Origin: Streptomyces sp. Edi2
GTDB lineage: Bacteria; Actinomycetota; Actinomycetes; Streptomycetales; Streptomycetaceae
Direction of reading: 5' to 3'
DNA length: 64,000 bases
NCBI RefSeq assembly: GCF_040253635.1
Contig: NZ_JBEJGX010000003.1
Span: 434,001-498,000, forward strand
In this document: in pieces, positions 34,117-61,400 of the stretch
Numbering within the stretch: the stretch's first letter is position 1
Layout of the letters: the number at the start of each line of letters is the position of its first letter
Notes under the pieces: generated by a model
Database searches by the model: none
Told to the model about the DNA's origin: nothing
What the model saw: only the letters and a program-made list of their open reading frames with translations
Translations under genes and position numbers: made by a program

Positions 34117-34152
34117 GCGGCTGCCCGCCGGCCCCCTCCGGCGGGCAGCCGC
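34117..34152 (+). terminator. Strong hairpin in the styA leader region
   Basis: A perfect 15-bp stem, 34117-34131 with 34138-34152, around a 6-base loop, ending 118 bp before the StyA-type start. It could end antisense or read-through transcription, or act as an attenuator. The rest of the 33746-34270 gap has no gene that I can support. Confidence 0.6.
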
Positions 34153-34270
34153 ATTCCGCACAGCCGCCCCCCACTCGTTGGCGTCGCCACGTGCCGAAGC
34201 GCTGCACAGCGCACGGCACTGCAAGGTGCTGTTCACAAACCGCTCACCCCAACCCCCGGAGTTCCCCCTC

Positions 34271-35491: not shown

Positions 35492-35567
35492 GCTCCCCGT
35501 CAAGGACGGACCAGCGAACTGACGCTACGTCAGCGATAGATACGTAACGAGAGCAGGACAGCAGGGC

Positions 35568-37292
35568 ATGAGAAGGATCGCGGTGGTCGGAGCCGGGCAG
35601 GCGGGTGCCCAACTCGCTCTGGGGCTCCAGGCGCACGGTTATGACGTCACCTTGGTCACCGACCGCGGCCCCGACGAGATACGTCGCGGCCCGGTCATGT
35701 CCAGTCAGTGCATGTTCGACACCGCGCTGCAGAGTGAGCGCGAACTCGGGCTGCACCACTGGGAGGACCAGGCCCCGGACATCTCCGCCATCGCGCTCTC
35801 TCTCATCGGTCCGCACGGTACTCCGGACGTCTCCTGGCGTGCGCCGCTGGAAGCCCCTGCCCACTCCGTCGACCAGCGGGTCAAGTGTGCCGCCTGGATC
35901 GAGCAGTTCGCGGACGGCGGCCGCGGCGAGATCGTGCTGCACGAGGCGGGCGTCAACGACCTCGAATGGTACGCCCGTACGCACGATCTCGTCGTGGTCT
36001 CCACGGGCAAGGGCGAGCTGAGCCAACTTTTCCCGCGCAACTCCGAACTCTCCCCGTACGACCGGCCGCGCCGTGCGCTGGCCCTGACGTATGTCACGGG
36101 AACGGCTCCGCGGGAGGGGGAGGACGCCGTCCACTACCGTCTGGTCCCCGGCGTCGGCGAGTACTTCTCCTTCCCGGCCCTCACCACTACCGGACCCTGC
36201 GACATCATGGTCTTCGAAGGTGTCCCCGGCGGTCCGATGGACTGCTGGGACGACATCCGCACGCCTGAGGGCCACCTCACCCGCTCACTGGAAATCCTCC
36301 ACCGGTTCTTCCCCGACGAATACGAGCGCTGCCGGCACGCCCGGCTCACCGACAGCGGCGGCGTGTTGCGCGGCAGGTTCACTCCGACCGTCCGGCACCC
36401 CGTCGCCCGCCTGGCCTCCGGCCGGCACGTCCTCGGCATGGCCGACGCCGTCGTCCTCAACGATCCGATCACCGGCCAGGGTTCGAACAACGCGGCCCAG
36501 GCCGCGACCCACTACCTCGACAGCATCCTCCGCCACGGCACCGGCGAGTTCACCCCGCAGTGGATGCAACGCACCTTCGACAACTTCTGGCGCGGCTGGG
36601 CTCAGTGGGCCGTCGGCTGGACCAACTCCCTCCTGACCGACCTGAGTCCCCATCACCGCGACCTCCTGACCGCGGGGGCCGAAATCCCCTCGGTCGCCGG
36701 CGCCCTCGCCGCCGGGTTCGACGACCCGCGCACCCTCTACCGCTGGTGGTTCGAGGAGCCCGAGGCACACCGCTTCCTCGCCGAGAAGCGTGCCCAACAC
36801 GCCGCCCACTTCGACGGCCGCGATCTGCGCCGCGCACTGGGCCAGTACGCCACCGGCGTGACCGTGGTGACGGCCCGCGCCCCCGACGGCCGCAACGTCG
36901 GCATGACCGCCAACTCCTTCACCTCCGTCTCGTTGGACCCGCCCCTCGTCCTGTGGTGCCCCGGCAAAAACAGCCCGAGCCTCCCGGACTTCACCGACGC
37001 CTCGCACTTCGCCGTCCACGTACTGGCCGCCGACCAGCACCACCTCTCCCGCCAGTTCGCCACCCCGGCCGACGACAAATTCCGCGGTACCCCCACCACC
37101 CCCGGCATCGCCGGCACCCCCCTCCTGGAGGGCGCGGTCGCCCGCTTCCAATGCCGCACCGTCCAACGCCTCGACGCCGGCGACCACGTCATCTTCCTCG
37201 GCGAGGTCGAAGAGTACGAGGCCGACGGCGGCGCCCCTCTGGTGTTCCACTCGGGGTACTACCACGTGGCGACGAAGCATCCCGATCTGTGA
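35568..37292 (+). CDS. styA2B: Fused styrene monooxygenase and flavin reductase (StyA2B-type)
   Basis: 574-aa natural fusion. Residues 1 to about 410 form a second StyA-like oxygenase (IAVVGAGQAGAQLALGLQAH, VPGVGEYFSFPALTTTGPCD, LNDPITGQGSNNAAQAATHY). Residues of about 414-574 form an HpaC/StyB-type flavin reductase (LRRALGQYATGVTVVTARAP, VGMTANSFTSVSLDPPLVLW, HSGYYHVATKHP). It is self-supplying for reduced FAD and can probably feed StyA1 encoded just upstream. It shares about half of its oxygenase residues with the neighbour, so the pair probably arose by duplication. It lies in an operon with styA1 under the AraC regulator. Confidence 0.93.
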   Translation: MRRIAVVGAGQAGAQLALGLQAHGYDVTLVTDRGPDEIRRGPVMSSQCMFDTALQSERELGLHHWEDQAPDISAIALSLIGPHGTPDVSWRAPLEAPAHSVDQRVKCAAWIEQFADGGRGEIVLHEAGVNDLEWYARTHDLVVVSTGKGELSQLFPRNSELSPYDRPRRALALTYVTGTAPREGEDAVHYRLVPGVGEYFSFPALTTTGPCDIMVFEGVPGGPMDCWDDIRTPEGHLTRSLEILHRFFPDEYERCRHARLTDSGGVLRGRFTPTVRHPVARLASGRHVLGMADAVVLNDPITGQGSNNAAQAATHYLDSILRHGTGEFTPQWMQRTFDNFWRGWAQWAVGWTNSLLTDLSPHHRDLLTAGAEIPSVAGALAAGFDDPRTLYRWWFEEPEAHRFLAEKRAQHAAHFDGRDLRRALGQYATGVTVVTARAPDGRNVGMTANSFTSVSLDPPLVLWCPGKNSPSLPDFTDASHFAVHVLAADQHHLSRQFATPADDKFRGTPTTPGIAGTPLLEGAVARFQCRTVQRLDAGDHVIFLGEVEEYEADGGAPLVFHSGYYHVATKHPDL

Positions 37293-38731: not shown

Positions 38732-40045
38732 CTAGAGGCCCCGTGGCCGCACCATCATCCGGATCCCGTCCCGTGCCCACAGCACGAACCGTTCCACCGG
38801 CGTCACCTCGTGCCCCGGCGCGGGCCGGAAGCGCAGGCGCTTGAGGAGGACGGCCAGAACGAGCTGGGCCTCGACCGTGGCCAAAGCGGCGCCCTCGCAG
38901 CTGCGTGGCCCGATCCCGAAGGGGATATACGCGAGCCGCGGCCGCTGGGCCACCTCCTGCGGCGTGAACCGTTCGGGGTCGAACCGCTCCGGCTCGGGCC
39001 AGTGCTCAGGGTTCAGGTGCACCGCCCAGAACGGATAGAACACCGTCGTCCCGGCCGGGATCTCGTACGGGCCCAGAACCAGGTCCTCGGTCGTCTCGCG
39101 TGCGCCGTACGGGCCGGGCGGGAACAGGCGCATCGACTCCTTGAGCACCATGTCCAGATACGTGAGCCGCCGCAGATCACCGTAATCGGGCGTGGCACGC
39201 TCGCCCAACACCTGGTCCAGTTCGGCGGCGACGCGCTCGGCTACGTCCAGATGGCGGCCCAACAAGTGCAGTGTCCACGAGACGGCGACGCCGGTGGTGT
39301 GGTGAGCGGCGAGCAGCGTCATCATCACGGTGTCCCGGATCCGCGCCGGGGTCTGACCGGCCTCGACGAGCGCCCCGATCAGGTCGCTGCGGTCGGTGCG
39401 GCCGCCCGGGCGGTGCGCCGCCACCACGCGGTCGACCGTCGCGCGCAGATAAGCAAGGGCCGCCTCGGCCCGCTCTGCCGAGCACGGGTCGGCCCGCGGC
39501 ACCTGGTAGAGCCGCCCGAGGTGCTCGGTGAGCACCTCCTCGAATGCGGCGACGACACGGTCCGTGTCGGTTTCCGCGCCACCGAGTGCGAACCCGCAGA
39601 TCATGCGGAGCGACAATGCGGTCAACTCCTGCTGCAGTTCGACGGGTTCGCCGTCGGCCTGCCCCGCCCAGCGGTCCGCGAGCTCGCCCGCCAGCTCGGT
39701 GAAGCGCGCGAAGTGCCGCTCGTGAGCCGGTCGTCCGGCGAGCACCGAGAGCAGTAGTCGGCGCCAGGGGGTGTGCTCGTCGGCGGGTAGCACTTGCAGG
39801 TTCCCGGCCTCACACAGCGGATCCAGGAACGCGAACAGTTCCTCGGGCCGCGTGTCGAAGTGCGCCGTGGCCTCCAGAAGCACGGGATCGGCGACCGACA
39901 CAGCCGTGTCCGCGCCCGGCAGTTGGAAGCGCACGACGGGGCCGTACGCCTCGTGCAGGCGCAACTGGTACCGGTGCAGCCCGCCCGCAGCCGCAACAGC
40001 GCTCAGCCCGCCGTCCTCCTGGTGCTCGGGTCCGGGGATGTGCAT
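38732..40045 (-). CDS. Cytochrome P450 with atypical I-helix
   Basis: 437-aa haem monooxygenase-type protein. The ExxR motif is KESMR (302-306), the PERF-like motif FDPERF is at 355-360, and the haem loop FGIGPRSCEG gives the thiolate ligand C383. In the I-helix the usual A-G-x-D/E-T-T reads LLAAHHTTG (245-253), so the acidic residue that assists oxygen activation is replaced by His while the threonines remain. ATG 40045 is preferred to GTG 40048 because AGGAGG is 7 bases upstream. Its substrate is unknown. The neighbour upstream is the EF-hand protein, 280 bp away. Confidence 0.93.
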   Translation of the reverse strand: MHIPGPEHQEDGGLSAVAAAGGLHRYQLRLHEAYGPVVRFQLPGADTAVSVADPVLLEATAHFDTRPEELFAFLDPLCEAGNLQVLPADEHTPWRRLLLSVLAGRPAHERHFARFTELAGELADRWAGQADGEPVELQQELTALSLRMICGFALGGAETDTDRVVAAFEEVLTEHLGRLYQVPRADPCSAERAEAALAYLRATVDRVVAAHRPGGRTDRSDLIGALVEAGQTPARIRDTVMMTLLAAHHTTGVAVSWTLHLLGRHLDVAERVAAELDQVLGERATPDYGDLRRLTYLDMVLKESMRLFPPGPYGARETTEDLVLGPYEIPAGTTVFYPFWAVHLNPEHWPEPERFDPERFTPQEVAQRPRLAYIPFGIGPRSCEGAALATVEAQLVLAVLLKRLRFRPAPGHEVTPVERFVLWARDGIRMMVRPRGL

Positions 40046-40328
40046 CACGGTGCCTCCTGTCCCAAGTCCTGCCCTTGAGTCCGTCCGAGAGCGCGGCCCT
40101 CAACTCGCCCTTGTGTCAGCCGGTTTCCCCTTCCCCGCTCCCTACCCACGGCGGGGCCCGTGCCCGCACCGGCCTCGGCGAACATTTCATGGATCGCGGA
40201 GGTCCTTGCGCATCTGCACCGGGCTGGTGTCGCCGTGGTGGGGCAGCGCGATGACGGCCTGCGAAGCAGGCGCGCCCGCCCACATCAGTGGCTGCCCGCT
40301 GCCCCCGGCACTTCGCGTGCATCTGCCG

Positions 40329-41774
40329 CTACGGGCGCCCGAGGAGTTGACTGCCGGCCGTGCTGTCGGCGCGGGCGGTGAAGTAGTCGGTGAAGGCCTG
40401 GACGAATTCGTCTTCGGTGATGCGGCCGTCTCCATCGTGGTCGATCTGGCGGAAGCCGTGGTTGAGTTCGGCGGGGTGGACCCGGGAGCCGCCGAAGATC
40501 GTGCGGTACTCATCGGCACACAGATGTCCGCTGCCGTCGGTGTCCGCAGCGTGGAAGATCGCCCGCACCGCGACATGCAGCCCTTGCTCGAGATAGGCCG
40601 GCCCGGCGTCGATCCCGGTGAGCATGGCGGTGACGAACTCCTCGCAGGTCAGCTGTCCGTCGTCGTCAGCATCCATGCCGGTCCGCAGGTGCTGCCACCA
40701 GGTCTCGAAGGCGGCGTAGACACGGGCTTCGCGCTCAGGGGTGAGCTCGAGCGGCCAGCACACGTTGTGCGCCATGGCCTGCAGATCGGTCGAGTTGATG
40801 CGGCCGTCGCCGGTCTGGTCGAGAACCTGGCGGAAGAAGGTCCGCATACGCGCCGGGCGGGAATCGGCACCCTTGCGGCGGCGAGGTGCGGGAATCCGGA
40901 CGGGGCTCGCCTCCGGCGGGGAAGGACGGTCGGTGGAGGCGGTGGAAGGCTGCGGGGCCGAGGAGTTGCCGGTCGGCGGCGTGCGGTAGCGGCGGTGCTC
41001 GGGCAGCGCGTTCATCAGCACGCGCATCCCACGGTGCAGGAGGAAGGACAGCAGGGCCGCGCGGCGGGTGCGGGGCAAGTTGAAGCGCTCGCGGAAGGCT
41101 TCCGGCAGGTCCGCGATGGTCAGCGCACCGATCACGTAGGCAGTCACCGTGCGCACAAGCGGCCAGGCCGGCTTCAGGCGGCCGAGGCGGCGCGGTGCGG
41201 GCGCTTCACGGAGCATGTCGAAGAGCAGGTAGCGCACGGGTTCGCTGTATTCGAGGCGCTCGCGAATGGTGCGGTCCATATACGCGGGAACGTCCGCGGC
41301 CGTGGCCGGGAGCAGGTCGTCGGAGAGACCGAACTCGGCACACACCGCACGGAATTCTCCGTACATCTGATCCAGCTCAGGCGGTGTCAGCGGGCGTCCG
41401 GACAGTTCCCGCATCGCCGTCATGCACTCGTACAAGGTGACCAGTACCCACACCCGCACCGCCGGGTCCAACGCGGTGAACGGCCTGCCCTGCTCGTCGG
41501 TCCCGGCCAGACGACGGTGCGTGCGTTCCAGACGGGCCACCTCACGGCGTAGCCCTTCACGGTCGGAGAAGAACAGCCGCTTCCCGCTGTCCATGGTGTG
41601 CTCGACACGCCGCCACGGATGCGCGCGGTAGGTGGAGAAGTGGGCCATGCCGGCCGCGACCGCCGGATCCGCGGTCTGCAGAACCAGCAGCCGCCAAGCC
41701 ACCAACCCGATCCGCCACTCCCCCAGCGTGCGGCGCAGCAGCGAATCAGGACCAGGAAGATCAGCGGCAGCCAA
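40329..41774 (-). CDS. DUF2236 (MpaB-like) protein fused to four EF-hands
   Basis: 481-aa two-part protein. Residues of about 15-265 form a DUF2236/MpaB-like domain (AHFSTYRAHPWRRVEHTMD, LVTLYECMTAMREL, YMDRTIRERLEYSEPVRYLL), a family with haem-binding and oxygenase or polymer-cleaving members. A Pro/Ser-rich linker (about 264-305) leads to four EF-hand loops: DQTGDGRINSTD (319-330), DADDDGQLTCEE (368-379), DTDGSGHLCADE (411-422) and DHDGDGRITEDE (445-456). The C-terminal third thus looks like a calmodulin-type calcium sensor. TTG 41774 is the start, with GAGGAGA 7 bases upstream. Confidence 0.85.
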   Translation of the reverse strand: MAAADLPGPDSLLRRTLGEWRIGLVAWRLLVLQTADPAVAAGMAHFSTYRAHPWRRVEHTMDSGKRLFFSDREGLRREVARLERTHRRLAGTDEQGRPFTALDPAVRVWVLVTLYECMTAMRELSGRPLTPPELDQMYGEFRAVCAEFGLSDDLLPATAADVPAYMDRTIRERLEYSEPVRYLLFDMLREAPAPRRLGRLKPAWPLVRTVTAYVIGALTIADLPEAFRERFNLPRTRRAALLSFLLHRGMRVLMNALPEHRRYRTPPTGNSSAPQPSTASTDRPSPPEASPVRIPAPRRRKGADSRPARMRTFFRQVLDQTGDGRINSTDLQAMAHNVCWPLELTPEREARVYAAFETWWQHLRTGMDADDDGQLTCEEFVTAMLTGIDAGPAYLEQGLHVAVRAIFHAADTDGSGHLCADEYRTIFGGSRVHPAELNHGFRQIDHDGDGRITEDEFVQAFTDYFTARADSTAGSQLLGRP

Positions 41775-42569: not shown

Positions 42570-43830
42570 ACCAAGGACCTGGAGAAAAAAAGCGTGCAGC
42601 GCCGGCAGGAACTCCAAGCCGAGCGGGAGGAATACTTCCGGCTCGTGCAGATCGGGCTGACCAACGAGAGGCAAGCCGACACGTCGGCGTCCATGAACGG
42701 ACCGGTCGCGAATGGCGAAACGGCCGGACCGACCCGAGGCGGCGGCGGGCTCGGGCTCTTGCGGAGCAGGAGTCCGAGCCTTCGCCGACGAGGTACCTGC
42801 GGGAATGCGAGCGGCTTCACATGGCCGACCGGCTGCGGGAGAAGGCGTCCGTCCGTGCGATCGCCGCCGAGCTGGGCCGCAGCCCGTCCACGATCAGTCG
42901 TGAAATACGCCGCAACGGCATGCCTTTGCGCGGTGACCGCACCCGATGGGCCTACCGTCCCCACGCCGCCCAGCGCCGGGCCGATGCCCGCCGGACCCAG
43001 CCCAAACCCAGCAAGATCGGCCAGGTCACCGAACTGCGGGACTTCATCCAGGCCCACTTGGCCATGCGGTGGAGCCCGGAACAGATCTGTCACGCTCTTC
43101 GCAGACGGTTCCCCGACCGGCCGGAGATGCACGTGGTCCACGAGACGATCTAACAGGCCCTCTACGTACAAGGCCGCGGGGAACTGCGCCGTGAGCCGGC
43201 CAGAGCTCTGCGCACGGGACGGGCTCGGCGCAAGCCGCACCGCCAGGCCGCTGCCCTGCAGCCACGCTTCTCCCACCCCATGGTCGTGATCAGCGAGCGG
43301 CCCGCCGAAGCGGACGACCGGGCAGTGCCCGGCCACTGGGAAGGCGACCTGATCATCGGCAAGGACAGCGCCTCCGCCATCGGCACCCTGGTCGAGCGGG
43401 CCACCCGTTACGTCATGCTCCTCCACCTGCCCCAGGGCCGTGGCGCCCAAGACCTCAGCATGGCCTTGCAGACCACCGTCCAGGCCCTGCCGCGGCAGCT
43501 GACCAAGTCCCTGACCTGGGATCAAGGCTCAGAGGTGGCCGCCCACCATGCCTTCACCGCCGCCACGGACATTCCGGTCTACTTCTGCGACCCAGCCAGC
43601 CCCTGGCAGCGCGGATCGAACGAGAACGCCAACGGCCGGCTGCGGCAGTACTTCCCCAAGGGCACCAACCTGGCCGTCCACCCCCGCGAGCACCTGGAAG
43701 CCGTCGCCGCCGAACTCAACAGCCGAGCGCCTGCATAAACAGCTCGCAGCCTCATCAACCAACCACGTGTTGCAACGACCCCCGGAATTCGCCCAGTCCG
43801 GCAAGGCTTCGTCGTCTCACCCGCTCTCAC
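42570..43830 (+). pseudogene. IS30-family transposase, inactivated
   Basis: The N-terminal part KKSVQRRQELQAEREEYFRL is in one frame; the helix-turn-helix (REKASVRAIAAELGRSPSTI) and DDE core (HWEGDLIIGK, TWDQGSE, NENANGRLRQYFPKG) lie in others. There is an in-frame TAA at about 43150 between HETI and QALYVQGRGE. Near 43725 a deletion joins AELNSR to AERLHKQLAA, the tail of a different frame. The three catalytic acids remain readable. At least four lesions make it non-functional. Confidence 0.8.
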
Positions 43831-46063: not shown

Positions 46064-47032
46064 TTGTCTGAAACGATTTCCGATCGGCATGTCGAGATCG
46101 CCTGGCCCGATCTGGGTATCACCGTGACCGCGGAACTCGATGGTCGCAACGCTGAACTTGCCGACGCACTGTGGGAGGCGTTGCCCTATCAGAGTCTGCA
46201 GGGACACGCGCTGGTGGCGGGACAGCATCTATATCACGCGGCGCCGATTCCGTCGCTGCTGCATCTGTCCGCGTCTACTCGGATCGCAGATCGACGCGAG
46301 GCGCCCGATGGGACCATATTCTGCTCCGCGCTGCAGCATTTAGGCATCAAGTACGGCACGTTGACCGAACCTATGCCGGCATCCCCGGTGGGCCGGATCT
46401 TGCAGGGGGATATGCCCGCACTACTGGAGGTCGGGCAGGCAATCTGGGATTCGGTCTATTCGACGAAGAAGCCGATCCTGGTGGAGGTCCGCAAGGCGGG
46501 CACCGAAGGCGGCCACCGTATTCCGCATTTAACCGCCGTAGATCCCGACGCGAGCCGTCTCATCCACGACGTGTACACCGCGACCGAGCGGGCTTGGCTG
46601 TCCGGACCGCAGGAGCTCGCTGATCTCCACGCGGGGGTGATCCCTTCCGGGGCAGGGAGTTTTGAGACGGTGTTGCCCACTCTGCTGTTCGTCAACGGTG
46701 AGACCCGCCCGCTGGGGTATGCCACCTACGGTGGTCTGGTCCGGGCCACGGTCCAGGGCATGCCGATGGATTCATTGCGTCACATGGCCCGCCTGCTGGT
46801 CGGTCTTCCGGCCGAGTTTCTGGGCTACTGCGGCCTGGAGCAGCTTTGGAGTTTCACCCAGCGCTTCCTGGCCTGCCTCGACCAGATCGATCGCGACGAT
46901 TTCCTGAGTCTGGTGAGCCAACTGGCCCTCTACGTCAACTGTTTGGGTGGTTGGAATCTGCACCTGTATCCATGGGACGCCGGAGATCACCTGCGCCAAC
47001 TGCGCCCCAATGAATCGGTCCGCCAGTCGTGA
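46064..47032 (+). CDS. Cucumopine-synthase/McbB-like protein, candidate Pictet-Spenglerase
   Basis: 322-aa protein. The N-terminal cyclophilin-like domain (about 8-145) reads VEIAWPDLGITVTAELDGRN, LADALWEALPYQSLQGHALV and AGQHLYHAAPIPSLLHL. The C-terminal helical bundle (about 150-315) includes IPSGAGSFETVLPTLLFVNG and PLGYATYGGLVRATVQGMP. This two-domain plan matches cucumopine synthase of Agrobacterium and, from memory, the beta-carboline-forming McbB. E102 in TLTEPMP is my candidate for the catalytic acid. The start is TTG at 46064 with GAAGGGG upstream. Two TTA codons (46340 and 46529) imply bldA dependence. The stop overlaps the next start by 4 bp. The substrate amino acid and carbonyl partner are unknown. 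Confidence 0.75.
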   Translation: MSETISDRHVEIAWPDLGITVTAELDGRNAELADALWEALPYQSLQGHALVAGQHLYHAAPIPSLLHLSASTRIADRREAPDGTIFCSALQHLGIKYGTLTEPMPASPVGRILQGDMPALLEVGQAIWDSVYSTKKPILVEVRKAGTEGGHRIPHLTAVDPDASRLIHDVYTATERAWLSGPQELADLHAGVIPSGAGSFETVLPTLLFVNGETRPLGYATYGGLVRATVQGMPMDSLRHMARLLVGLPAEFLGYCGLEQLWSFTQRFLACLDQIDRDDFLSLVSQLALYVNCLGGWNLHLYPWDAGDHLRQLRPNESVRQS

Positions 47033-48141
47033 GCCAACTCCCCGAACGCACGGACACCGTTGTCATCGGCGGGGGTGTCGTCGGCAACTCAATAGCGTGC
47101 CAGCTTGCCGAGGCAGGCGTCGGTACCGTCCTGCTGGAGCGTGGCGCACTCGGATCGGGATCGTCCGGGACCACTGCGGGCGTGGTGCGTACCTACTTTC
47201 CCGGTAACGCTCTCATCAGCAGCCTTGCTGTCCGGAGCCTGGCGGCTTATCACGCCTTCACCGAACGGACCGGAATCGACCTCGGCTTGAAGCGTATCGG
47301 CTTGCTCGTGCTGTTCACCGACGAGCACCAGACGCAGGACTTCCGGCACACCCGAGCTGCCCAGAAGGCAGCCGGAGTGGATGTCGAACTCGTGACAGCT
47401 GCTGAAGCAGCGCGGCTCAACCCGCTGGTCGACGAGCGAGCCATCCTGGCGGCAGCCTGGTCGCCCGAGGCCTACGCATGCGATCCCGCCGCGATCGTGC
47501 GCGGCTATGCCACAGCCGCCCAGCAGGCCGGCGCCATTCTGCGCACGGAAACACCCGTCACCGGTATCGACCCAGATGGGCGGGTCCACACGTCTGCGGG
47601 CAGCATCCGCGCAGACACCGTCGTCTGCGCGGCAGGCCCCTGGGCGGGAAGCGTCGCCGCCATGGCCGACGTACGCCTTCCTGTGACCACATACCCCGTC
47701 GAAATGCTCCTGACCGACACCCCCGGTAGTGCCCCGCGCTGCGTTCTGCCGATGACTATGCACCCGTCCAGCCTGCGCATCCGAAGCTGGGGAGACCGCA
47801 TCCTCGTCGGGATGGGCCGCCCCGCTCCGGATGAAACCCGACAGGCCTGGCTACAACGGGTGTCACACCACCTCGGTACGACCTATCCGGCCCTTGCCGG
47901 CAGCAGCCTCGAGAACGGGTGGAGCGGAGACCTCGATGTCAGTCCGGACGGGATGGCTTTCATCGGCCGCGATCGCTCCCGCCCGTTCCTCTACGCGGCT
48001 GGATTCTCCGGTCAGGGCCTGTGCCAAGCACCTGCCGCCGGAGAGATCATCCGAGATCTCGTGCTCGACAAGAAATCCTGGACCGACATGACCGGTCTCT
48101 CCACCGCCCGCTGCCTCAGTGGTTCGGCCGAGATCGGGTAG
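47029..48141 (+). CDS. DAO-family FAD-dependent oxidoreductase
   Basis: 370-aa flavoprotein oxidase related to glycine, sarcosine and D-amino-acid oxidases. The FAD-binding Rossmann motif is TVVIGGGVVGNSIACQLAEA, followed by LLERGALGSGSSGTTAGVV, the substrate-domain strands, and the C-terminal NGWSGDLDVSPDGMAFIGRD with AAGFSGQGLCQAPAAGEII. It begins with GTG inside the stop of the cucumopine-like gene, so the two are coupled. The family oxidises secondary or primary amines to imines. In this setting ring oxidation of a tetrahydropyridine-type product, or oxidation of an opine, is the natural guess. Confidence 0.87.
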   Translation: MSQLPERTDTVVIGGGVVGNSIACQLAEAGVGTVLLERGALGSGSSGTTAGVVRTYFPGNALISSLAVRSLAAYHAFTERTGIDLGLKRIGLLVLFTDEHQTQDFRHTRAAQKAAGVDVELVTAAEAARLNPLVDERAILAAAWSPEAYACDPAAIVRGYATAAQQAGAILRTETPVTGIDPDGRVHTSAGSIRADTVVCAAGPWAGSVAAMADVRLPVTTYPVEMLLTDTPGSAPRCVLPMTMHPSSLRIRSWGDRILVGMGRPAPDETRQAWLQRVSHHLGTTYPALAGSSLENGWSGDLDVSPDGMAFIGRDRSRPFLYAAGFSGQGLCQAPAAGEIIRDLVLDKKSWTDMTGLSTARCLSGSAEIG

Positions 48142-48599
48142 GAAAGAAGAGGAAATCAACATGATTACGTAGGGCGCAATGGTTTCATCCCCATCGCCGA
48201 TGAGGCGTGACTGCTCAGGTCCTTGAATACGCGTGAGCGGGTGGTAGCCAGAGGTTTCCGGTCAGGAGGTCGCGGAGGGCGGAGAAGTGGGTGCGGCCCA
48301 CGTCGCGGTCGTGCGCGAGGCGCCGTTTCAACTCTGCTTTCTATGACTTGAGATCACCGATCCGGACCTCGAACCGATCGATCGTGCGGTCCTGCTGCGC
48401 GACCGGACGCGCGGGAACGTCGTACGACAGACGGTGCATGGTGAGACCCATGACCAGGACGGGAAGGCGGTGGCACGTGCGGGGACGATGACGTCGGCGC
48501 AGCCGACGCCCCTGCCGCGAGCCACCGCTGCCCGCCCTTCAGGGGCAATAAGTTCTGCAGTTGCCGGGCATTTGCTCAATTCTTTCGAGAGGAAAATTC
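48142..48599. other. Gap of about 460 bp inside the candidate cluster
   Basis: A minus-strand scrap reads LAHDRDVGRTHFSALRDLLT and NLWLPPAHAYSRT before a stop near 48220; a plus-strand scrap near 48350-48490 reads DLEPIDRAVLLRDRTRGNVV. Neither is recognised. The end carries the ribosome site GAGAGGA for the next gene. Confidence 0.4.
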
Positions 48600-49658
48600 A
48601 TGGTCGAGCACACTGGCGGAGAGTTCGTTCGAGAGATGATGCAGTGGCACTTCAGTCCAGAGACCGGGTCATCGTTCTGGCTGAAACGGGCCGAAACCCT
48701 CAACTTTGATCCGCTGACCGACGTCCGGGATTTCGACGATCTCCGCTTATTTCCCAATGTTGTGGATGAACTGCGCGATGTCGGTGTCCGTGAGCTGATT
48801 CCCCGTGGCTACGGTGACGAGCACGGGGCGACCGTCTACGAAAGCGGCGGTACCACAGGGCAGCCCAAGCGAGTGATGTACACCGCGGAGTGGCACCGCC
48901 GCAGCGTCGAATGGTTCAGTGAGCGACTGGATGCTCACGGCGTACCGCGAAATGTCGACTGGCTCAGTGCGGTTCCCACCGGGCCGCACAATGTCGGAGC
49001 AATGGCGGCCGACGCCGCGATGGCTCGGGGTGGGCTGAACTTCAGCATCGATCTGGACCCGCGATGGGTGAAGAAGCTCATCGCGCAGGGCCGGACGGAC
49101 ATGGCCGACGCCTACACCGATCATCTCATCGAACAGGTCGGCTACCTTCTGGCCGGCCAGAAGGTGGGCGTCCTCTTCGCCACCCCGCCGATGCTGGAGC
49201 GCCTCGCGCAGCATGACGATCTGGTCGAGTTGGTGAACCGGAAGGTTCGCGCGATCATCTGGGGTGGTACGCATCTGGACGCTGACACCCGAGATCTACT
49301 GCGCGACGAGGTGTTCGGAAACGCCAAATTGGTCGGCGGGTACGGCGGCACGATGATGCTGGGGACATCGGTGGAGCGACCCGGCCTCGGTGGCGACGAG
49401 CCGTGCGTGTTCGACCCCTTCGCTCCGTACACCACGTTCCGGGTAATCGACCCCGACACCGGCCGGGTTGTTCCGTACGGCGAGCGCGGGCAGATAGTTG
49501 TGCATCACATGAGCCGAAGTGCCCTGCTGGTCAACAACATCGAGCGGGACTACGCAACCCGGATCGCACCGGTGGCCGGCGGCTTCGGTGATTCGGTCGC
49601 AGACGTCGCACCCGTGGCGTCCTTCGGCGATACTCCGGTGGTCGAGGGCGTGTACTGA
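48600..49658 (+). CDS. EhpF-like adenylate-forming enzyme
   Basis: 352-aa ANL-superfamily protein resembling EhpF of phenazine (griseoluteate) biosynthesis and LuxE-type enzymes. The P-loop is YESGGTTGQPKRVMYTAEWH. IIWGGTHLDADTRDLLRDEV and KLVGGYGGTMMLGTSVERP correspond to the core adenylation motifs. The usual mobile C-terminal domain is missing, as in that subfamily. It should activate a carboxylic acid as the acyl-adenylate. ATG 48600 is fixed by GAGAGGA 6 bases upstream. A TTA codon (48747, codon 50) suggests bldA control. The last base of its stop is the first base of the next start, so it is translationally coupled to the ALDH-like gene. Confidence 0.82.
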   Translation: MVEHTGGEFVREMMQWHFSPETGSSFWLKRAETLNFDPLTDVRDFDDLRLFPNVVDELRDVGVRELIPRGYGDEHGATVYESGGTTGQPKRVMYTAEWHRRSVEWFSERLDAHGVPRNVDWLSAVPTGPHNVGAMAADAAMARGGLNFSIDLDPRWVKKLIAQGRTDMADAYTDHLIEQVGYLLAGQKVGVLFATPPMLERLAQHDDLVELVNRKVRAIIWGGTHLDADTRDLLRDEVFGNAKLVGGYGGTMMLGTSVERPGLGGDEPCVFDPFAPYTTFRVIDPDTGRVVPYGERGQIVVHHMSRSALLVNNIERDYATRIAPVAGGFGDSVADVAPVASFGDTPVVEGVY

Positions 49659-51019
49659 TGTTGTCCCTGGACGTTCTCGGCCCCGGCGGCCCCTATCGGT
49701 CCCGGCGTCAGGAGACCATTCGAGATCTTGCCGGAAACCCGGTCGCGACACTGAGTATCGCGCCCTCGCTCTACATCAGCCGCGCGATAAAGGCCCTGCG
49801 CCGAGCGCCGGCGCTACCCGTCGACACACGGATCGCGGCGTTCGCACAGGCGGGCCGGGCTTTCGCCACGCAGCCGATCGCGGGACTGACGGCGCAGGAA
49901 TATCAGCACACCGTCAGCGCGGTCACCGGGATACCGATCACGGTAGTGCGCAATGCCACCGACGATATTGCGCGGGCCGCCGAGCGGATCCACCACAGCG
50001 TGGAGAACGCGCGGCCAGCCGGTTCAGTCGGCTCGTGGCGCGATCCGCGGGCCCGGGGCGGTGCGGCGGTGTGGACCCGGCGCGGTGGGGTATTTGCCGT
50101 CCATGCGGCGGGCAATCACCCTGCGGTGCACCAGGGTTGGTTCGATGCCCTCGCGCTCGGCTATCGCGTTGCCGTGCGTCCCTCCCGTCGTGAACCGTTC
50201 ACCCCACATCGGCTGGTCACTGCCCTGCGCGAGGCCGGTTTCGGCGACGAGGGAATCACGTTGCTGCCCACCGACCACAACGGGGCCGACGACATCCTCC
50301 GGGACACCGACTTCGGAATGGTGTACGGAGGTACGGATGTCGTGGGCAAATATGCCGGCGATCGACGCATTCTGCCGCAGGGCCCCGGGCGCTCCAAGAT
50401 TCTCATCACCGCCGAAACCGAGTGGGAACCGCTCGTCGACACCATCGTGGAGTCGATCAGCAGTGGTGGGGGCGTCGGTTGCGTCAACGCCACCGGCGTA
50501 CTGGTCGAGGGCGACCCCTCCCCCGTGGCCGCGGCGATCGCCGAACGCCTCGACGCGCTGCCCAGCCTCCCCGCGACGGATGAACGCGCAGTCCTGCCCG
50601 TGCAGCCCGTCGGTCTCGCCCGTTGGTGGGACGAGTATCTGCGGCAACGGGCAGCGGGCACCAAGGCGTGGCTCGGCGGTGACGGTATCGTCGACGATCT
50701 CGGCGATGGTTCCGCGGTGCTCCGGCCGGCGGTGCACCAACTCGACAGCCCGTTCGCCGAACAGCTCGGGGTCGAGTTGGGCTTCCCCTGTGCGTGGATT
50801 GCCCCATGGGACCGCGACGCCGGGGTCCGGCCGCTGCGCGACACCCTCGTCCTCACTGCCGTCACCACCGACGCGAAGCTGATCGACGAATTGGTGGCCG
50901 AGCCGACGATCGCCAACGTCTACGTCGGTGACCATCCGACACCGTGGATGGAGCACGGACTGCCCCACGACGGCTACCTCGCTGAATTCCTCATGCGCAC
51001 CAAGACGATTCGATGCTGA
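49658..51019 (+). CDS. Aldehyde-dehydrogenase-fold acyl reductase (EhpG/LuxC-like)
   Basis: 453-aa ALDH-superfamily protein. The cofactor region reads VFAVHAAGNHPAVHQGWFDA and LALGYRVAVRPSRREPFTPH, and the likely catalytic cysteine is in SSGGGVGCVNATGVL. Together with the preceding adenylating enzyme it forms the pair described for EhpF/EhpG, in which an activated acid is reduced by NAD(P)H to an aldehyde. It overlaps that gene by one base (ATG 49658). The product aldehyde could serve the cucumopine-like enzyme. It is convergent with the phosphatase gene, 45 bp away. Confidence 0.82.
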   Translation: MLSLDVLGPGGPYRSRRQETIRDLAGNPVATLSIAPSLYISRAIKALRRAPALPVDTRIAAFAQAGRAFATQPIAGLTAQEYQHTVSAVTGIPITVVRNATDDIARAAERIHHSVENARPAGSVGSWRDPRARGGAAVWTRRGGVFAVHAAGNHPAVHQGWFDALALGYRVAVRPSRREPFTPHRLVTALREAGFGDEGITLLPTDHNGADDILRDTDFGMVYGGTDVVGKYAGDRRILPQGPGRSKILITAETEWEPLVDTIVESISSGGGVGCVNATGVLVEGDPSPVAAAIAERLDALPSLPATDERAVLPVQPVGLARWWDEYLRQRAAGTKAWLGGDGIVDDLGDGSAVLRPAVHQLDSPFAEQLGVELGFPCAWIAPWDRDAGVRPLRDTLVLTAVTTDAKLIDELVAEPTIANVYVGDHPTPWMEHGLPHDGYLAEFLMRTKTIRC

Positions 51020-51063: not shown

Positions 51064-51801
51064 TCAGCGGCGGTCCGCGAGGTGCGACGTGTCGTTCAGC
51101 AATTGCACCGACGCATTCCCATCCCCGTGATAGGCCACGGCCGACAGCGAGGCCGCCGACAACTCCATCCGGAACAGGGACACGGGCGGCGCGCCCAGCG
51201 CCAGCCGAACCAGCGTCCGCAACACCCCGACATGCGAAACGACCAACACCGTCTGCCCCTCGTACCGTGCCAGGAGCCGGTCCCGCAAGAGCGCGGCCCG
51301 GCGCGCAACCGCGGCGAATGTCTCCCCGGTTCCGCCCGGCACCGCTGCCGGAGAGGCAAGCCACGCTGCCAGCTCGTCCGGGTAGCGCTCGCGCACCTCG
51401 GCGAACGTAAGTCCCTCCCAGGCACCGAAATCCGCCTCGGTGAGCCCTTCGTCGATTCGGACTTCCAGGCCCAGCCGACGTGCCGCTGTCTCGGCCGTCT
51501 GCTGGGCTCGGCGCAGCGGTGAGGACACCACCGCCTGCACCGGGCCGCGTGCCACGAGCATCCTCCCGGCGGCCTCGGCCTGCCACTGCCCGGCCTCCGA
51601 CAACGCCGGATCGCCACCGCCGCTGCCGGACAACCGCTTCTCCGGCGTCAATGCCGTCTCACCGTGGCGTAGCAGCATAAGGGTCGTGGGGGTGCCCTGG
51701 CCGGTGAGGGCAAGGTTCACGCCGGCCGCTCCACAGGTAGTTCTGTCCCCGATGCGAATCGGGTCACCCCTTTCGATCACAGCCCCCGTCGCCGGCGGCA
51801 T
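51064..51801 (-). CDS. Histidine phosphatase domain, probably split from an RNase H/acid phosphatase
   Basis: 245 aa. From about residue 40 the protein is a histidine phosphatase: LMLLRHGETALTPEKRLSGS with the catalytic RHG, SSPLRRAQQTAETAARRLGL, FGAWEGLTFAEVRERYPDEL and VLVVSHVGVLRTLVRLALGA with the second His. It is very like the C-terminal half of the bifunctional RNase HI/phosphatase found in Streptomyces, including the tail ASVQLLNDTSHL. The RNase H half is absent and the first 40 residues are unrelated. A stand-alone phosphatase may therefore have been recruited to the cluster. It follows the LLM gene by 18 bp in the same direction. Confidence 0.8.
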   Translation of the reverse strand: MPPATGAVIERGDPIRIGDRTTCGAAGVNLALTGQGTPTTLMLLRHGETALTPEKRLSGSGGGDPALSEAGQWQAEAAGRMLVARGPVQAVVSSPLRRAQQTAETAARRLGLEVRIDEGLTEADFGAWEGLTFAEVRERYPDELAAWLASPAAVPGGTGETFAAVARRAALLRDRLLARYEGQTVLVVSHVGVLRTLVRLALGAPPVSLFRMELSAASLSAVAYHGDGNASVQLLNDTSHLADRR

Positions 51802-51819: not shown

Positions 51820-52704
51820 TCAGCGCAGCGCGGCGATAACCGGCGCGAAATTCTCCATGTTGTATTCCATAACCGTGAAGTAGGTGAAGCCGTAGCGTTC
51901 GCGGCGTTCCTTGAGTTGTTGCGCCATCTCCGATGGGGTTCCGATCAGCACAGTGGGAAGCTCCTCGGGGCTGCCCACGGCGTCGGGCGGCAGGAGCGGC
52001 TCGAACCTGTCAGGCACCGCGGCGCGTTCGGCGGGCGGAATCACCTGCTGCACCAGGATATTCAGCTCCACAGCGTCGGCACGGTCACCGAGTAGGCCGC
52101 GCACGTAGGCGACCCGTTCTTCCGTCTGCGCGATTCCGGCCACATGGAGTACATCGCCGGTGGTGCTGGCCCAGCCTCCGGTGAAGGCGATGATATCGGC
52201 CTGCGCGGCGGCCAGCCGCAGCAGCCGGTCGCCCCAGCCCCCAATCAGCAGTGGCGGCCCGGATGGTTGGGCTGGACGCGGCTGAAATTTTGCGTCCTTA
52301 AACAGACGACGCAATGTGGTGACAGTCCGTTCCAGCTGGTCGACCCGCCTTCCACCGCTGGTGAACGGTATCTCCGCGGTGTCGAACTCGGCCTTCACGT
52401 AGCCTGCGCCGAGCCCGAGTTCCATACGCCCGTCGATGAATTGGTCGGTGCTCGCCACCTCACGCGCGAGGAGGACAGGGTTGTAGAACGGTGTGTTCAA
52501 CACGAACGTACTCAGCCGTACCCGTTCGGTCATTTCGGCGGCGAGCACCAGTGCTGGAAACGGCGCGGAGAACTCCAGGTGATCGGCTACTCCGACTACA
52601 TCGAAACCGAGTTCCTCGGCTCTGCGGCACTTCGCGCTCCACTCGCGTCGCGAACCGGGAACGAACATGTTGACACCGAAGCGGAAGGGGCGCTGCGAAG
52701 ACAT
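51820..52704 (-). CDS. Luciferase-like (LLM) F420-dependent oxidoreductase
   Basis: 294-aa barrel oxidoreductase of the TIGR03621-like F420 group: PFRFGVNMFVPGSRREWSAK, AEELGFDVVGVADHLEFSA, RVRLSTFVLNTPFYNPVLLA, GRMELGLGAGYVKAEFD, GPPLLIGGWGDRLLRLAAAQ and YFTVMEYNMENFAPVI. The enzyme should use F420 or FMN to reduce or oxidise a small molecule. The start at 52704 has no clear ribosome site and a TATA-like string overlaps it, so it could be leaderless. It heads a two-gene operon with the phosphatase, convergent with the candidate alkaloid operon. Confidence 0.88.
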   Translation of the reverse strand: MSSQRPFRFGVNMFVPGSRREWSAKCRRAEELGFDVVGVADHLEFSAPFPALVLAAEMTERVRLSTFVLNTPFYNPVLLAREVASTDQFIDGRMELGLGAGYVKAEFDTAEIPFTSGGRRVDQLERTVTTLRRLFKDAKFQPRPAQPSGPPLLIGGWGDRLLRLAAAQADIIAFTGGWASTTGDVLHVAGIAQTEERVAYVRGLLGDRADAVELNILVQQVIPPAERAAVPDRFEPLLPPDAVGSPEELPTVLIGTPSEMAQQLKERRERYGFTYFTVMEYNMENFAPVIAALR

Positions 52705-52989
52705 TATACTTGTTTACCACATGATGATTCTCCCGTCCTGCCTCTGAGCGGGAAGAAATCAATCAGTTATCCATTGAGGCCCTCTCGGCAACGTCATAGT
52801 TGCGGTGCGTGATCGGGTGCGGGTGGCCGAGGTGGTTACACGACGTCAAATAGGCGTGAAGGCCCTGGTAGAACGGGTTGGCGGAGATCAATGTCCCAGC
52901 CCAGAGGCTTCATGTGACGTCCAGCATCACCTACACCGCTGTCCTCGATGTTCGCAGTCGGACCGCGGAGCACCTCGCGACGTTGCGGT

Positions 52990-53510
52990 GCGACGACCGC
53001 AGGCGGCTCCGCACCGCAAGGGACCCGCGCCCTGGGCGTCCGCAAACAAGTCGTACTGGTGCCACGCGGGTTCGTCGACGGCACCCGGCTTGTCCAACTC
53101 GCCCGGGACAACGGCATCGCCGGTCTGGTTGTCCACCGCTGCCTGCCGGTCCGCGAGCACAGCACCACCTGCGACCGCACCCACGGTCTCGTCGACGCCC
53201 TCAACCGGCTCGCCGCAACCCTCAGCATTCCCACCCTGACCGACCTGACCTACGAGAACGTCCGTGCCGAATTTCGCCACGCAGTCAAAATACCCAACAG
53301 CGACGAACTCAGCGAGTCGGAACCGACGTTCAACACGACGATCCCCGACGTGCACGGCATGGCGGAGCATGCGAGCGCCCTGCTGCAAGTCACCTTCAAG
53401 GCCCTGCGCAGGGTCAGCCTCGACCCGGCAGCCATCACCCGCATCGCCTGAGCCGCCCTCGCCCTGCTCCGCCTCGAACACGGCCGCACCGCCTGAGCGA
53501 AGATCACGTA
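52990..53510 (+). pseudogene. IS5-type transposase remnant with a large internal deletion
   Basis: GVRKQVVLVPRGFVDGTRLV then QLARDNGIA is the N-terminal part; TLTDLTYENVRAEFRHAVKI, EPTFNTTIPDVHGMAEHASA and LLQVTFKALRRVSLDPAAIT are the C-terminal part, with an in-frame stop before AALALLRLEHGRTA. The DDE core is deleted. It lies about 290 bp beyond the LLM gene. 53510-53880 has nothing that I can support. Confidence 0.65.
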
Positions 53511-55597: not shown

Positions 55598-57265
55598 TAC
55601 TCGTCTCGCGCATTCACGTGGCTGGGCGTCCGATGGGTGATCAGAAACACGATGAGTGCCCCTGACCTGCAACGATGGGACTCGTCTAGGGTCCTGTTCG
55701 TCGTCAGGAAAGCGGCACGCCTCAGGTGAAGCAGAGTATCGGGTCGTACCCCCGTGTCCGGGTCGAGGGCGGTGGTCGCGGAGTGGTTTCGCAGGCCGGG
55801 GCCGTACTGCTGGTGGAGACGGTCCGCAAGAGCGGGCTGGACAGCGCGATATCGGCGGCGTTGGCGCCGTGGCGCAAGCAGCGGGCGGTGCACGATCCGG
55901 GCAAGGTCCTGCTGGACGTGGCGCTCGCGGTCGCGCTGGGCGGAGACTGCCTGGCCGACGTCGAGGTGCTGCGGGCCGAACCGAGCGTGTTCGGGCCGGT
56001 GGCCTCCGACCCGACCGTCTCCCGCCTGGTCGACACGCTCGCCACGAGCGGGGAGCGTGCGCTGACCGCGATCCGCCGGGCCCGTGCTCAGGTCCGCGAA
56101 CATGTCTGGGCGCTGGCCGGGGACGCCGCCCCCGATACGGGCGGTCAGCTGATCGTGGACCTGGACGGGGTGCTGGTGATCGCGCACTCGGACAAGCAGG
56201 CCGCCGCGGCGACCTGGAAGCGGACGTTCGGCCACCATCCGATCATGGGGTTCGTCGACCACGGGGCGGGCGGGTCAGGTGAGCCGGTGGCGGGCCTGCT
56301 CAGAGCGGGGAACGCGGGCAGCAACACCGCCGCCGACCACATCACCGCCACCCAGATGTCCCTGGCCCAGCTGCCGAAGAGGTACCGGCGCGGGCGCCGC
56401 ACCCTGGTCCGCACCGATTCCGGGGGCGGCACCCACGAGTTCGCCAACTGGCTCACTGCGCGGGGCCGGTGGCTGTCGTACTCGATCGGCATGACCATCA
56501 CAGACGCCATCCACCAGGCCGTACTGAAGGTCCCGGCATCAGCCTGGACGCCGGCAGTCGAGCCCGGCGGGGAGGTCCGCGACGGTGCCTGGGTCGCCGA
56601 GATCGGCGGGGACTGCCTGAAGGGGTGGCCAAAGGGGATGCGGCTGATCGTCCGCAAGGAACGCCCGCACCCCGGCGCCCAGCTCCGCTTCACCGACGCC
56701 GAAGGTAAGCGTCTGACCTGCTTTGCCACGAACACTCCCGGCACCGCGATCGCCGGGCTCGAACTGCGGCACCGCCAGCGTGCCCGCTGCGAGGACCGCA
56801 TCCGAGGCGCCCGCGACACCGGCCTGCGCAACCTCCCACTCCACGGCTTCGCGCAGAACCAGATCTGGCTGGAGATCGTCCAGCTCGCCCTGGACCTGCT
56901 GGCCTGGATGCCGATGCTCGCCCTCACCGATCAGCCACGGACGTGGGAGCCCAAACGCCTGCGGCTGCGGCTGTTCTCCGCCGCCGCCCAACTCGTCACC
57001 ACCGGCCGCCGCCGCTACCTCCGCCTCGCGGCGCACTGGCCCTGGATCGACGTGATCACCACAGCGGTCAACCGGCTCCAAGCCCTGCCGAACCCCGACT
57101 GACCAGCCCCTTCTCGCTCCTTCGAGCAGCACCACCCCACCGGAGCAGTGGAACCCGGCGCCCACCCGACGCGACAGCCGGGCCACCGCTATTCCCACGT
57201 TCAGCCCGCAACAGCGAAACGGCCCGCCGGAAAATCCGACGGACCGTCATGCAAGATCGAGGCTA
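55598..57265 (+). mobile_element. IS1380-type insertion sequence, apparently intact
   Basis: The left end near 55598 aligns with the remnant at 53883, and the right end near 57265 (GATCGAGGCTA) is the imperfect complement of that remnant's first bases. A single complete transposase gene fills it. The intact copy's own left repeat matches less well. I did not find a convincing target duplication. Confidence 0.7.
55726..57102 (+). CDS. IS1380-family transposase
   Basis: 458-aa DDE transposase with an uninterrupted frame. DPGKVLLDVALAVALGGDCL, LIVDLDGVLVIAHSDKQAAA (first Asp) and TFGHHPIMGFVDHG lead to RTLVRTDSGGGTHEFANWLT (second Asp) and the C-terminal CEDRIRGARDTGLRNLPLHG with the final Glu region. 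GTG 55726 corresponds to the start seen in the diverged left-end remnant. It is probably active or recently active. Confidence 0.9.
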   Translation: MKQSIGSYPRVRVEGGGRGVVSQAGAVLLVETVRKSGLDSAISAALAPWRKQRAVHDPGKVLLDVALAVALGGDCLADVEVLRAEPSVFGPVASDPTVSRLVDTLATSGERALTAIRRARAQVREHVWALAGDAAPDTGGQLIVDLDGVLVIAHSDKQAAAATWKRTFGHHPIMGFVDHGAGGSGEPVAGLLRAGNAGSNTAADHITATQMSLAQLPKRYRRGRRTLVRTDSGGGTHEFANWLTARGRWLSYSIGMTITDAIHQAVLKVPASAWTPAVEPGGEVRDGAWVAEIGGDCLKGWPKGMRLIVRKERPHPGAQLRFTDAEGKRLTCFATNTPGTAIAGLELRHRQRARCEDRIRGARDTGLRNLPLHGFAQNQIWLEIVQLALDLLAWMPMLALTDQPRTWEPKRLRLRLFSAAAQLVTTGRRRYLRLAAHWPWIDVITTAVNRLQALPNPD

Positions 57266-58431: not shown

Positions 58432-61400
58432 GTGAATCAGGAGAATTTTTCCAGCCCGACCGAGGACTGCCCCGCTATGCGACGATTCCCGGATCTCAAC
58501 TCTGTAGTCGACCTGGTTCGCGACCAAGTGGCTCAGGTGCTCGTTTATGTGCAGCCGGACATGGTCAACGTGGATCAGTCCTTCAAGGACGCCGGGTTCG
58601 ATTCCATCGCTGCCGTGCAGTTGTGTAACCGGTTGAATGAGGTCACGAGCCTTTCGTTGCCTGACACTTTGGTCTTCGACTACCCCACCCCGCTGGCTTT
58701 GGCTGAGCATCTCTTCACGCTGCTCGGCGAGGAAGAGACCACGGAACCTCCCGCCGGGTCACCCTCGTCCCAAGAAAGCCCCGCGCGCGAGGGTGAGGTA
58801 TCCGCTGCCGATCCCATCGCCATCGTGGGGATGGGATGCCGTTACCCCGGAGGCGTGCAGTCGGCTGAGGATCTGTGGAATCTGATCTCTGCAGGCACGG
58901 ATGCCACCACAGAATTCCCCACCGATCGTGGGTGGGACATAGCTGCTCTCTATAACGAGGACCCCGATCACGTAGGCACCAGCTACACCATGCGGGGAGG
59001 TTTCCTGGAGGGAGCGGCGGAATTCGACCCGCGCTTCTTCGCCATCTCACCGCATGAGGCGTTGGCGATGGACCCGCAGCAGCGATTGCTACTGGAAACA
59101 TCCTGGGAAGCGATCGAGTCGGCCGGAATAAACCCCCGCTCCCTCCGCGGTACCAATGCGGGCGTGTTCGCCGGATTGATGTACCACGATTACGCATCGA
59201 CGGTCGAGCAGGTCCCCGGAGAGATCGAAGGACACTTGACCACGGGTAAATCCGGCGGAGTCCTGTCCGGTCGGGTGTCGTATGTGCTGGGGCTCGAGGG
59301 GCCCGCGGTGACGGTGGACACGGCGTGTTCGTCGTCGTTGGTGGCGCTGCACTGGGCGGTGCAGTCCTTGCGGTCCGGTGAGTGCTCCCTGGCGTTGGCG
59401 GGTGGAGTCACCGTCATGTCCAACCCGGCGACTTTCGTGGAATTCAGTCGGCAGCGGGGGCTGTCTGCGGACGGCCGGTGCCGTTCGTATGCCAGCAGCG
59501 CTGATGGGACTGGGTTTGCTGAGGGTGTGGGTGTGTTGGTGGTGGAGCGGTTGTCCGATGCCGTGCGGAACGGGCATCGGGTACTCGCAGTGGTACGGGG
59601 ATCCGCCGTCAACCAGGACGGCGCTTCCAACGGCCTGACGGCGCCGAGTGGGCGGGCGCAGGAGCGGGTGGTGCGGCAGGCATTGTCGGGTGCGGGACTG
59701 GGGCCTGGCGATGTGGACGTGGTGGAAGGGCACGGCACGGGGACGCGGTTGGGCGATCCGATCGAGGTCGGCGCGCTGGTAGAGGCGTATGGCCGGGAGC
59801 GATCCGGTGCGCCGTTGCTGCTCGGCTCGGTGAAGTCGAACCTCGGCCACACCCAAGCCGCCGCGGGTGTCGCAGGAATCATCAAAATGGTGCAGGCCAT
59901 GCGCCATGGCGTGGTCCCGGCATCGCTGCACGTGGACGCTCCCTCGCCGCATGTCCAGTGGGGCGACGGTGTCGAGCTGGTCACGGCCGCGCAGGCATGG
60001 CCCGAATCCGACCGACCGCGCCGTGCAGCGGTCTCGTCCTTCGGTGTGTCGGGGACCAACGCCCACGTCATCATCGAGCAAGCCCCACCCGTACCCCCGC
60101 CCGCCCGCAAGAGCGGTGGTGTGGTGCCGTGGGTCTTGTCCGGTCGCACCGCGGACGCGCTACGGGACCAGACCGACCGTCTGCGCACTCACCTGGAGTC
60201 CCACCCCGAACTCGACCCCGTCGACGTCGGATACACCCTCGCCGTAGGACGCACCCACTTCGAGCACCGCGCCGTGGCCATGAACGGAGACCTGACGTCG
60301 TGGGTGGCCGAGGGAACAGCCGTTGCCCACCGTGAGGTGGTCTTCGTGTTCCCCGGCCAGGGAGCGCAATGGGTGGGCATGGGACAAGACCTCATGGCCT
60401 CCTCCCCGGTATTCGCGGCTTTGATGACGGAGTGCGAGCAGGCGCTTGCTCCGTTTGTGGACTGGTCACTGTCCGAAGTCCTCGCCGACGCCTCGATGCT
60501 GGAGCGCGTGGACGTCGTCCAGCCGGCCTCGTGGGCCGTCATGGTCTCCCTGGCAGGCCTATGGCAATCCATGGGCGTTACCCCCTCCGCAGTCGCCGGA
60601 CACTCCCAGGGAGAAATCGCCGCGGCCTGCGCGGCAGGAGCACTCTCCCTGGACGACGGCGCCCGCATCGTCGCACTACGCAGCCAGCTCATCCGCGACA
60701 AACTAGCCGGCTCCGGCGCCATGGCATCAGTCTCACTCCCACTCAACGAAGTCCGCGACCACATCGCCGACCTGAAGGGACTGTCGGTCGCCGCCGTCAA
60801 CGGCCCCCGGTCAGTCGTGGTCTCCGGCGACGTCAACGCCGTCGAAAACTTCGTGGCAGCGCGCACCGCTGAGGGAGTCCACGCCCGCATGGTCGCAGTC
60901 GACTACGCCTCCCACTCCGCACACGTCGACAGCATCGAACAACAACTGACCACCTCACTCACCGGCCTCCAACCCACCACCTCACACACCCCCTTCTACT
61001 CCACAGTGACCGGCACACCCCTCGACACCACGGAACTGAACGCCGACTACTGGATCCGCAACCTGCGGCAAACAGTCCGCTTCGAAGAAACCACCCGGCA
61101 CCTGCTCGACGACGGACACGACGTCTTCATCGAAATCAGCGCCCACCCCGTCCTCGGCATCGGCCTCCAAGACACCTTCGAAAACCACACCGACTCCCCC
61201 GCCATAACCCTCGGCACCCTACGACGCGACGACGGAGACATCGACCGCTTCCTCACCTCACTCGGCGAAGCCCACGTCCACGGCGTCGACATCAACTGGC
61301 ACACCGCCTTCACCAACCAAGAAGCCCAACGCATCGAACTCCCCACCTACGCCTTCCAACACGACCACTACTGGCTCGAGAAAGGGAGTCGCAGGGCGGA

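Follow-up and report, generated by a model that had tools for sequence, protein, structure and literature searches.

What kind of molecule is made from the genes at 46064..51019 in the window, a stretch of 64,000 nt from Streptomyces sp. Edi2 (contig NZ_JBEJGX010000003.1, positions 434,001 to 498,000)? Four genes in this region encode a Pictet-Spenglerase (PSase), a flavin adenine dinucleotide (FAD) oxidoreductase of the DAO family, an EhpF-type adenylating enzyme and an EhpG-type reductase with an aldehyde dehydrogenase (ALDH) fold. The first-pass annotation regarded them as a candidate alkaloid or opine pathway for which no described cluster with this exact set was known. The four genes are real, intact and rightly placed. 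Judged by gene content and order, the cluster is most likely another copy of the kind that was proposed for pyridindolol in 2021 (PMC7955054), and it is highly probable that its genes form a pyridindolol-type β-carboline cluster that uses tryptophan and a three-carbon unit.

Pyridindolol (m/z 259.1089) was reported from Streptomyces sp. ID38640 (PMC7955054, Sci Rep 2021). Table 4 of that paper (QIK04791.1 and neighbours) lists for ID38640 a PSase of 322 amino acids (aa), an FAD oxidoreductase of 370 aa, a ligase of 352 aa, an aldehyde dehydrogenase of 453 aa, a histidine phosphatase of 218 aa and an LLM protein of 293 aa. A syntenic region is found in the pyridindolol producer S. alboverticillatus, where protein identity to ID38640 is given as over 90% in the text and 87-95% in Table 4. 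The window holds the same six enzyme families in the same order as these two strains, and the sizes of the first four (322, 370, 352 and 453 aa) are identical, in a comparison made by order and size and not by sequence. The phosphatase (218 versus 245 aa) and the LLM protein (293 versus 294 aa) differ in length between ID38640 and the window. In both, a transposase gene comes after the LLM gene. Genes 1-3 of the ID38640 region, which include an AraC-type regulator and two StyA-type flavoenzymes, are resembled by an AraC/AndR-like regulator, a StyA-type monooxygenase and a 574-aa StyA-StyB fusion at 32765-37292 of the window. Between the flavoenzyme genes and the PSase gene there are two short open reading frames (ORFs) in ID38640, whereas about 8.8 kb with other genes separates them in the window. 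The same gene set had therefore already been proposed for pyridindolol when the cluster was first taken to be undescribed. By titles, abstract beginnings and passages of the openly accessible literature, PMC7955054 is the only paper that treats the biosynthesis of pyridindolol. It proposes that tryptophan and a C3 unit, 'possibly glyceraldehyde(phosphate)', are joined, followed by aromatisation and carboxyl reduction, while it does not settle what the ligase and the phosphatase do. The pyridindolol link itself is thus the hypothesis of PMC7955054, and what is new here is the roles offered for the phosphatase and for EhpF/EhpG.

The conserved unit consists of six genes, two more than the four to which the pathway was initially assigned. 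The PSase gene (46064..47032, 322 aa, TTG start) is followed by the DAO-family oxidoreductase gene (47029..48141, 370 aa; PF01266, 214 bits) and, after a gap at 48142..48599, by the genes for EhpF (48600..49658, 352 aa) and EhpG (49658..51019, 453 aa), all on the plus strand. The histidine phosphatase (51064..51801, 245 aa; PF00300, 194.7 bits) and an LLM-class F420-type oxidoreductase of the TIGR03621 family (51820..52704, 294 aa; 344.6 bits, above the cut-off) are encoded next to them on the minus strand, an arrangement that is also found in relatives. The best 80 of 92 confirmed PSase loci were compared (numbered L001 to L080). Counts apply to the available DNA, in which contig ends truncate some loci, and presence was called by tblastn with author-set thresholds of identity and coverage; the crude gene caller at times chose a false start or an ORF on the opposite strand, as happened to the DAO gene in several loci. 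A protein search, which comprised 194 proteins with 120 among the matches listed, served purely as an inventory. The four genes are kept together in other genomes, and 8 of the 80 PSase loci (L001-L007 and L043) hold them within the complete six-gene set. In a tree of 88 PSases, the window belongs to a 9-row clade (bootstrap 99, SH-aLRT 98) that consists of the window and these eight loci. The proteins of S. lilacinus (L001) are 88-93% identical to those of the window, with the LLM enzyme compared only in part. Among 392 sampled genomes of the genus, a PSase of at least 86% identity occurs in 5, and an EhpF of at least 88% identity occurs in the same 5. Clustering of neighbour genes revealed that the genes outside the unit differ among most of the six-gene genomes, which suggests where its borders lie. 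The exceptions are DUF475/TerC in L001-L005, some upstream genes common to L001 and L003, and polyketide synthase-like genes that were grouped across loci. DUF475/TerC, which in some relatives directly follows the LLM gene, was not seen beside the window cluster.

Gene 1 most likely encodes a full-length PSase of the McbB type that retains its catalytic residues. Its protein matches PF18631 (Cucumopine_C) with 149 bits and the marinacarboline enzyme McbB (PDB 3x27) with 288 bits over residues 8-313, with both domains in the same order, so the expected similarity to the cucumopine and McbB families is strong. R77, H92 and E102 align with Arg72, His87 and Glu97 of McbB, and all three are invariant in 88 of 88 sequences. 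Glu97 is the residue named as catalytic in PMC9366743, which agrees with the counterpart predicted for E102 in the first-pass annotation. McbB differs from the window system in its partner genes, mcbA and mcbC, and in its aldehyde, which is oxaloacetaldehyde (PMC7024544). A PSase and DAO-type pair is also known as StnK2/StnP2 from streptonigrin, to which the ID38640 proteins are 49% and 39% identical (PMC7955054). Six further loci of the same genus (L135-L140) carry a PSase of 46-48% identity, one or two DAO genes, methyltransferase-like and class I aminotransferase genes and, in some, DAHP synthase. These loci look like streptonigrin-type β-methyltryptophan clusters by their gene content, and unlike the window they bear no EhpF/EhpG, histidine phosphatase or LLM label. 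As a separate observation on this superfamily, the Pictet-Spenglerase-related structures PDB 9uwb and 9uwa match the PSase with the domains in reverse order, the C-terminal-type domain first, and represent a permuted branch; PDB 9ns6 and 9k0a match at similar positions.

The histidine phosphatase, as its distribution among genomes indicates, is a dedicated extra copy tied to the PSase. PRK07238, a model of RNase H/acid phosphatase, is matched by it over the C-terminal portion (positions 172-377 of 378) with 279 bits, below the cut-off of 326. A match at E 1e-45 is found in 380 of the 392 genomes, most of which have one. This usual match is taken to be a housekeeping fusion enzyme because many of the rows listed place it within an open frame that spans at least some 400 codons. 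Two matches occur in 25 genomes, namely all 24 with a PSase of at least 72% identity and one other (G335), in which the second match is only 51% identical. The 24 include two genomes with a split or partial PSase (G326 and G040); left out of them were six StnK2-like genomes (47-48% identity), each of which has a single phosphatase match, and those genomes in which the PSase matches are only short or distant fragments. A second copy is therefore present in 24/24 genomes with a close PSase versus 1/368 others (Fisher p 1.8e-37, not corrected for relatedness). This association suggests that an intermediate carries a phosphate, and it favours glyceraldehyde-3-phosphate or a similar phosphorylated aldehyde as the substrate of the PSase.

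EhpF matches PDB 3l2k/3hgu with 262 bits over residues 7-352; PF00501 was found in it and PF13193 was not at E <= 1, and it is thus devoid of the usual ANL C-terminal domain. The nucleophile of EhpG, Cys275, is conserved in 37 of 37 sequences. Where aldehyde dehydrogenases have their general-base glutamate, the aligned column contains Gln, Asn, His or Leu in all 37 and never Glu. By the general ALDH mechanism, this absence fits a reductase that must not hydrolyse its own thioester. The Foldseek and VIA matches of EhpG are numerous aldehyde dehydrogenases of the ordinary kind that lie within 2 Z units, which establishes the fold and not the substrate, and its name rests on the EhpF partner and the fold, not on comparison with the EhpG of phenazine clusters. 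The first family calls (McbB-like, DAO, EhpF and ALDH-type) were right in view of PF18631, 3x27, PF01266, 3l2k/3hgu and the ALDH fold. In phenazine biosynthesis, EhpF and EhpG reduce a phenazine carboxylate. As in the system of D-alanylgriseoluteic acid, the ALDH-type partner adjoins EhpF in the window; the pathway there is a phenazine pathway (PMC3175449), whereas the acid here would be a β-carboline-3-carboxylate. The two genes are also neighbours in Proteus BL95 (PMC11278526).

It was previously supposed that this pair makes an aldehyde by reducing a free acid, that the PSase joins this aldehyde to an amino acid and that the DAO enzyme then oxidises the ring, to give an undescribed alkaloid. 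The condensation of an amino acid with an aldehyde and the oxidation of the ring still fit, whereas the supply of the aldehyde by EhpF/EhpG fits poorly and the opine label is unlikely. The genes do stand together in one order, and the pair can make aldehydes independently, since 24 of 25 other Streptomyces loci (L087-L111) have EhpF and EhpG as direct neighbours and no PSase within 1.5-kb flanks; the available stretch of L108 showed no EhpG. Similarly, PSase was found in 0/10 twenty-kilobase regions around EhpF genes (L141-L150), in two of which (L145 and L150) the gene caller showed no EhpG. Such pairs are common in the genus, where their neighbours vary and either gene may come first, so they look like a portable acid-reducing module that would have been recruited into the window cluster. 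However, EhpF and EhpG occur in 12 of the 80 PSase loci, and the other 68 show none in the available DNA (true absences may be fewer) yet keep the oxidase. Moreover, the 3-hydroxymethyl group of pyridindolol needs the tryptophan carboxylate to be reduced, and aldehyde supply leaves the phosphatase unexplained. Aldehyde supply is therefore unlikely, and it is more likely that EhpF/EhpG reduce the ring carboxylate. An opine-like route, in which the gene 1 enzyme would act like cucumopine synthase and link an oxo acid to histidine or a different amino acid, is extremely improbable. The PF18631 superfamily is common to both, but the closest relatives of described role are McbB and, for the ID38640 protein, StnK2 (PMC7955054), while 15 matched records from Agrobacterium/Rhizobium plasmids encode cucumopine synthases of 24.7-29.7% identity to the PSase, and on these values the opine reading was rejected. 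The chemistry of cucumopine synthase differs from that expected of the window PSase.

From the observed families, catalytic residues, EhpG fold, conservation and extra phosphatase, we infer the substrates, step order and product of a pyridindolol-type pathway. The PSase would condense L-tryptophan and a phosphorylated C3 aldehyde, most probably glyceraldehyde-3-phosphate, with Glu102 as acid/base, to give a 1-substituted tetrahydro-β-carboline-3-carboxylate. The histidine phosphatase would then strip the phosphate and leave a 1,2-dihydroxyethyl side chain. Four hydrogens would be taken off by the DAO-type flavoenzyme, possibly together with the LLM enzyme, to form the β-carboline. Thereafter, EhpF would adenylate the 3-carboxylate to an acyl-AMP, and EhpG would take over the acyl group as a thioester on Cys275 and deliver hydride to release the aldehyde, which the LLM enzyme or a general reductase would turn into the alcohol. 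The LLM enzyme may thus possibly serve in the last reduction or in ring oxidation. The formula balance (tryptophan plus glyceraldehyde, minus H2O and 4H, with COOH converted to CH2OH) gives C14H14N2O3 and a calculated [M+H]+ of 259.1077, compared with 259.1089 reported (PMC7955054).

Several observations weigh against this pathway or its operation. Nine alignment columns separate the PSases of the phosphatase-bearing clade from those of L045-L080, and none is a conserved new basic residue present in the window; column 113 is mostly Arg in that clade and Leu in the window. In these columns, no clade-specific basic residue that could mark a phosphate pocket was found. The phosphatase is a trait of one PSase clade (42/44 of L001-L044 versus 0/36 of L045-L080), and the 24 genomes therefore cannot count as independent cases. 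McbB reportedly oxidises its own product (PMC7024544), and a role for the DAO enzyme is therefore not forced. The gap between genes 2 and 3 and the nearby transposase genes may also bear on expression in Streptomyces sp. Edi2. A pyridindolol-type cluster that is silent, or that makes a different β-carboline in this strain, could be suspected from the 458-base gap, which has no long open frame in six-frame reading, and from an integrase-core gene (43280-43738), a weak DDE_Tnp_4 match (52948-53451; 24.4 bits versus a cut-off of 24.8) and a transposase (55726-57102). Nevertheless, none of the six ORFs is interrupted and each is close to full length compared with relatives, the gap varies among relatives from about 46 to 550 bases and is of similar size in L007, and in the producer ID38640, too, a transposase gene follows the LLM gene (PMC7955054). 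A silent or altered cluster is thus very unlikely.

Beyond the window, a DAO homologue was found in 79 of the 80 PSase loci, and in 76 its gene comes immediately after that of the PSase on the same strand, which indicates that PSase and oxidase form the core of the family. The LLM oxidoreductase is present in 8 loci. A carbamoyltransferase (PF02543/PF16861) together with an SRPBCC protein occurs in 34 loci, all within the Streptomycetaceae/Nocardia set L001-L044. This variant, accompanied by the histidine phosphatase, accounts for many of L008-L044, such as L038:10001-13851, L023, L035 and L037 of S. lavendulae. Carbamoyltransferase and EhpF/EhpG are found together in three loci (L008, L009 and L022). 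The remaining set L045-L080, mostly Nonomuraea and Actinomadura, has a cytochrome P450 in 34 of 36 loci and an ANL ligase in 13. Nonocarbolines are known from a Nonomuraea, and no cluster is reported for them in the consulted passages of PMC7148486. A literature search aimed at the PSase-carbamoyltransferase variant found no paper on it, and the wider PSase-oxidase family, above all this variant, is a more open question than the window cluster. It can be tentatively hypothesized that a large family of actinobacterial alkaloids draws directly on glycolysis and has the PSase-oxidase pair as its constant core. Its Pictet-Spengler reaction would act on glyceraldehyde-3-phosphate and be followed by a phosphatase copied from a housekeeping acid-phosphatase domain, while exchangeable modules would set the product by EhpF/EhpG reduction, as in the window, by carbamoylation or, in a phosphatase-free branch, by P450 oxidation. 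Xanthine dehydrogenase and deaminase genes lie beside 20 and 29 of the 80 loci, respectively. They were considered as pathway genes and rejected as probably ordinary purine genes, since the one large subunit tested scored 937.7 versus an equivalog cut-off of 849.5.

Elsewhere in the window, an mpaB/rubber-oxygenase-type protein with C-terminal EF-hands is encoded at 40329-41774, adjoining a P450 gene at 38732-40048. Modular type I polyketide synthase genes at 58432-64000 run off the window end, and no link between them and the alkaloid unit was seen.

Together, these results replace an inferred pathway to an undescribed alkaloid by a copy of the proposed pyridindolol cluster that can be tested, and offer concrete roles for the ligase and the histidine phosphatase, the two genes without a settled role in PMC7955054. 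What deserves further work is the link to the phosphatase and the carbamoyltransferase variant, which is widespread. If the reading of the phosphatase is true, glycolysis would directly provide a building block of β-carbolines, and a search for undescribed β-carbolines could well begin with the related carbamoyltransferase loci of Streptomyces and Nocardia.

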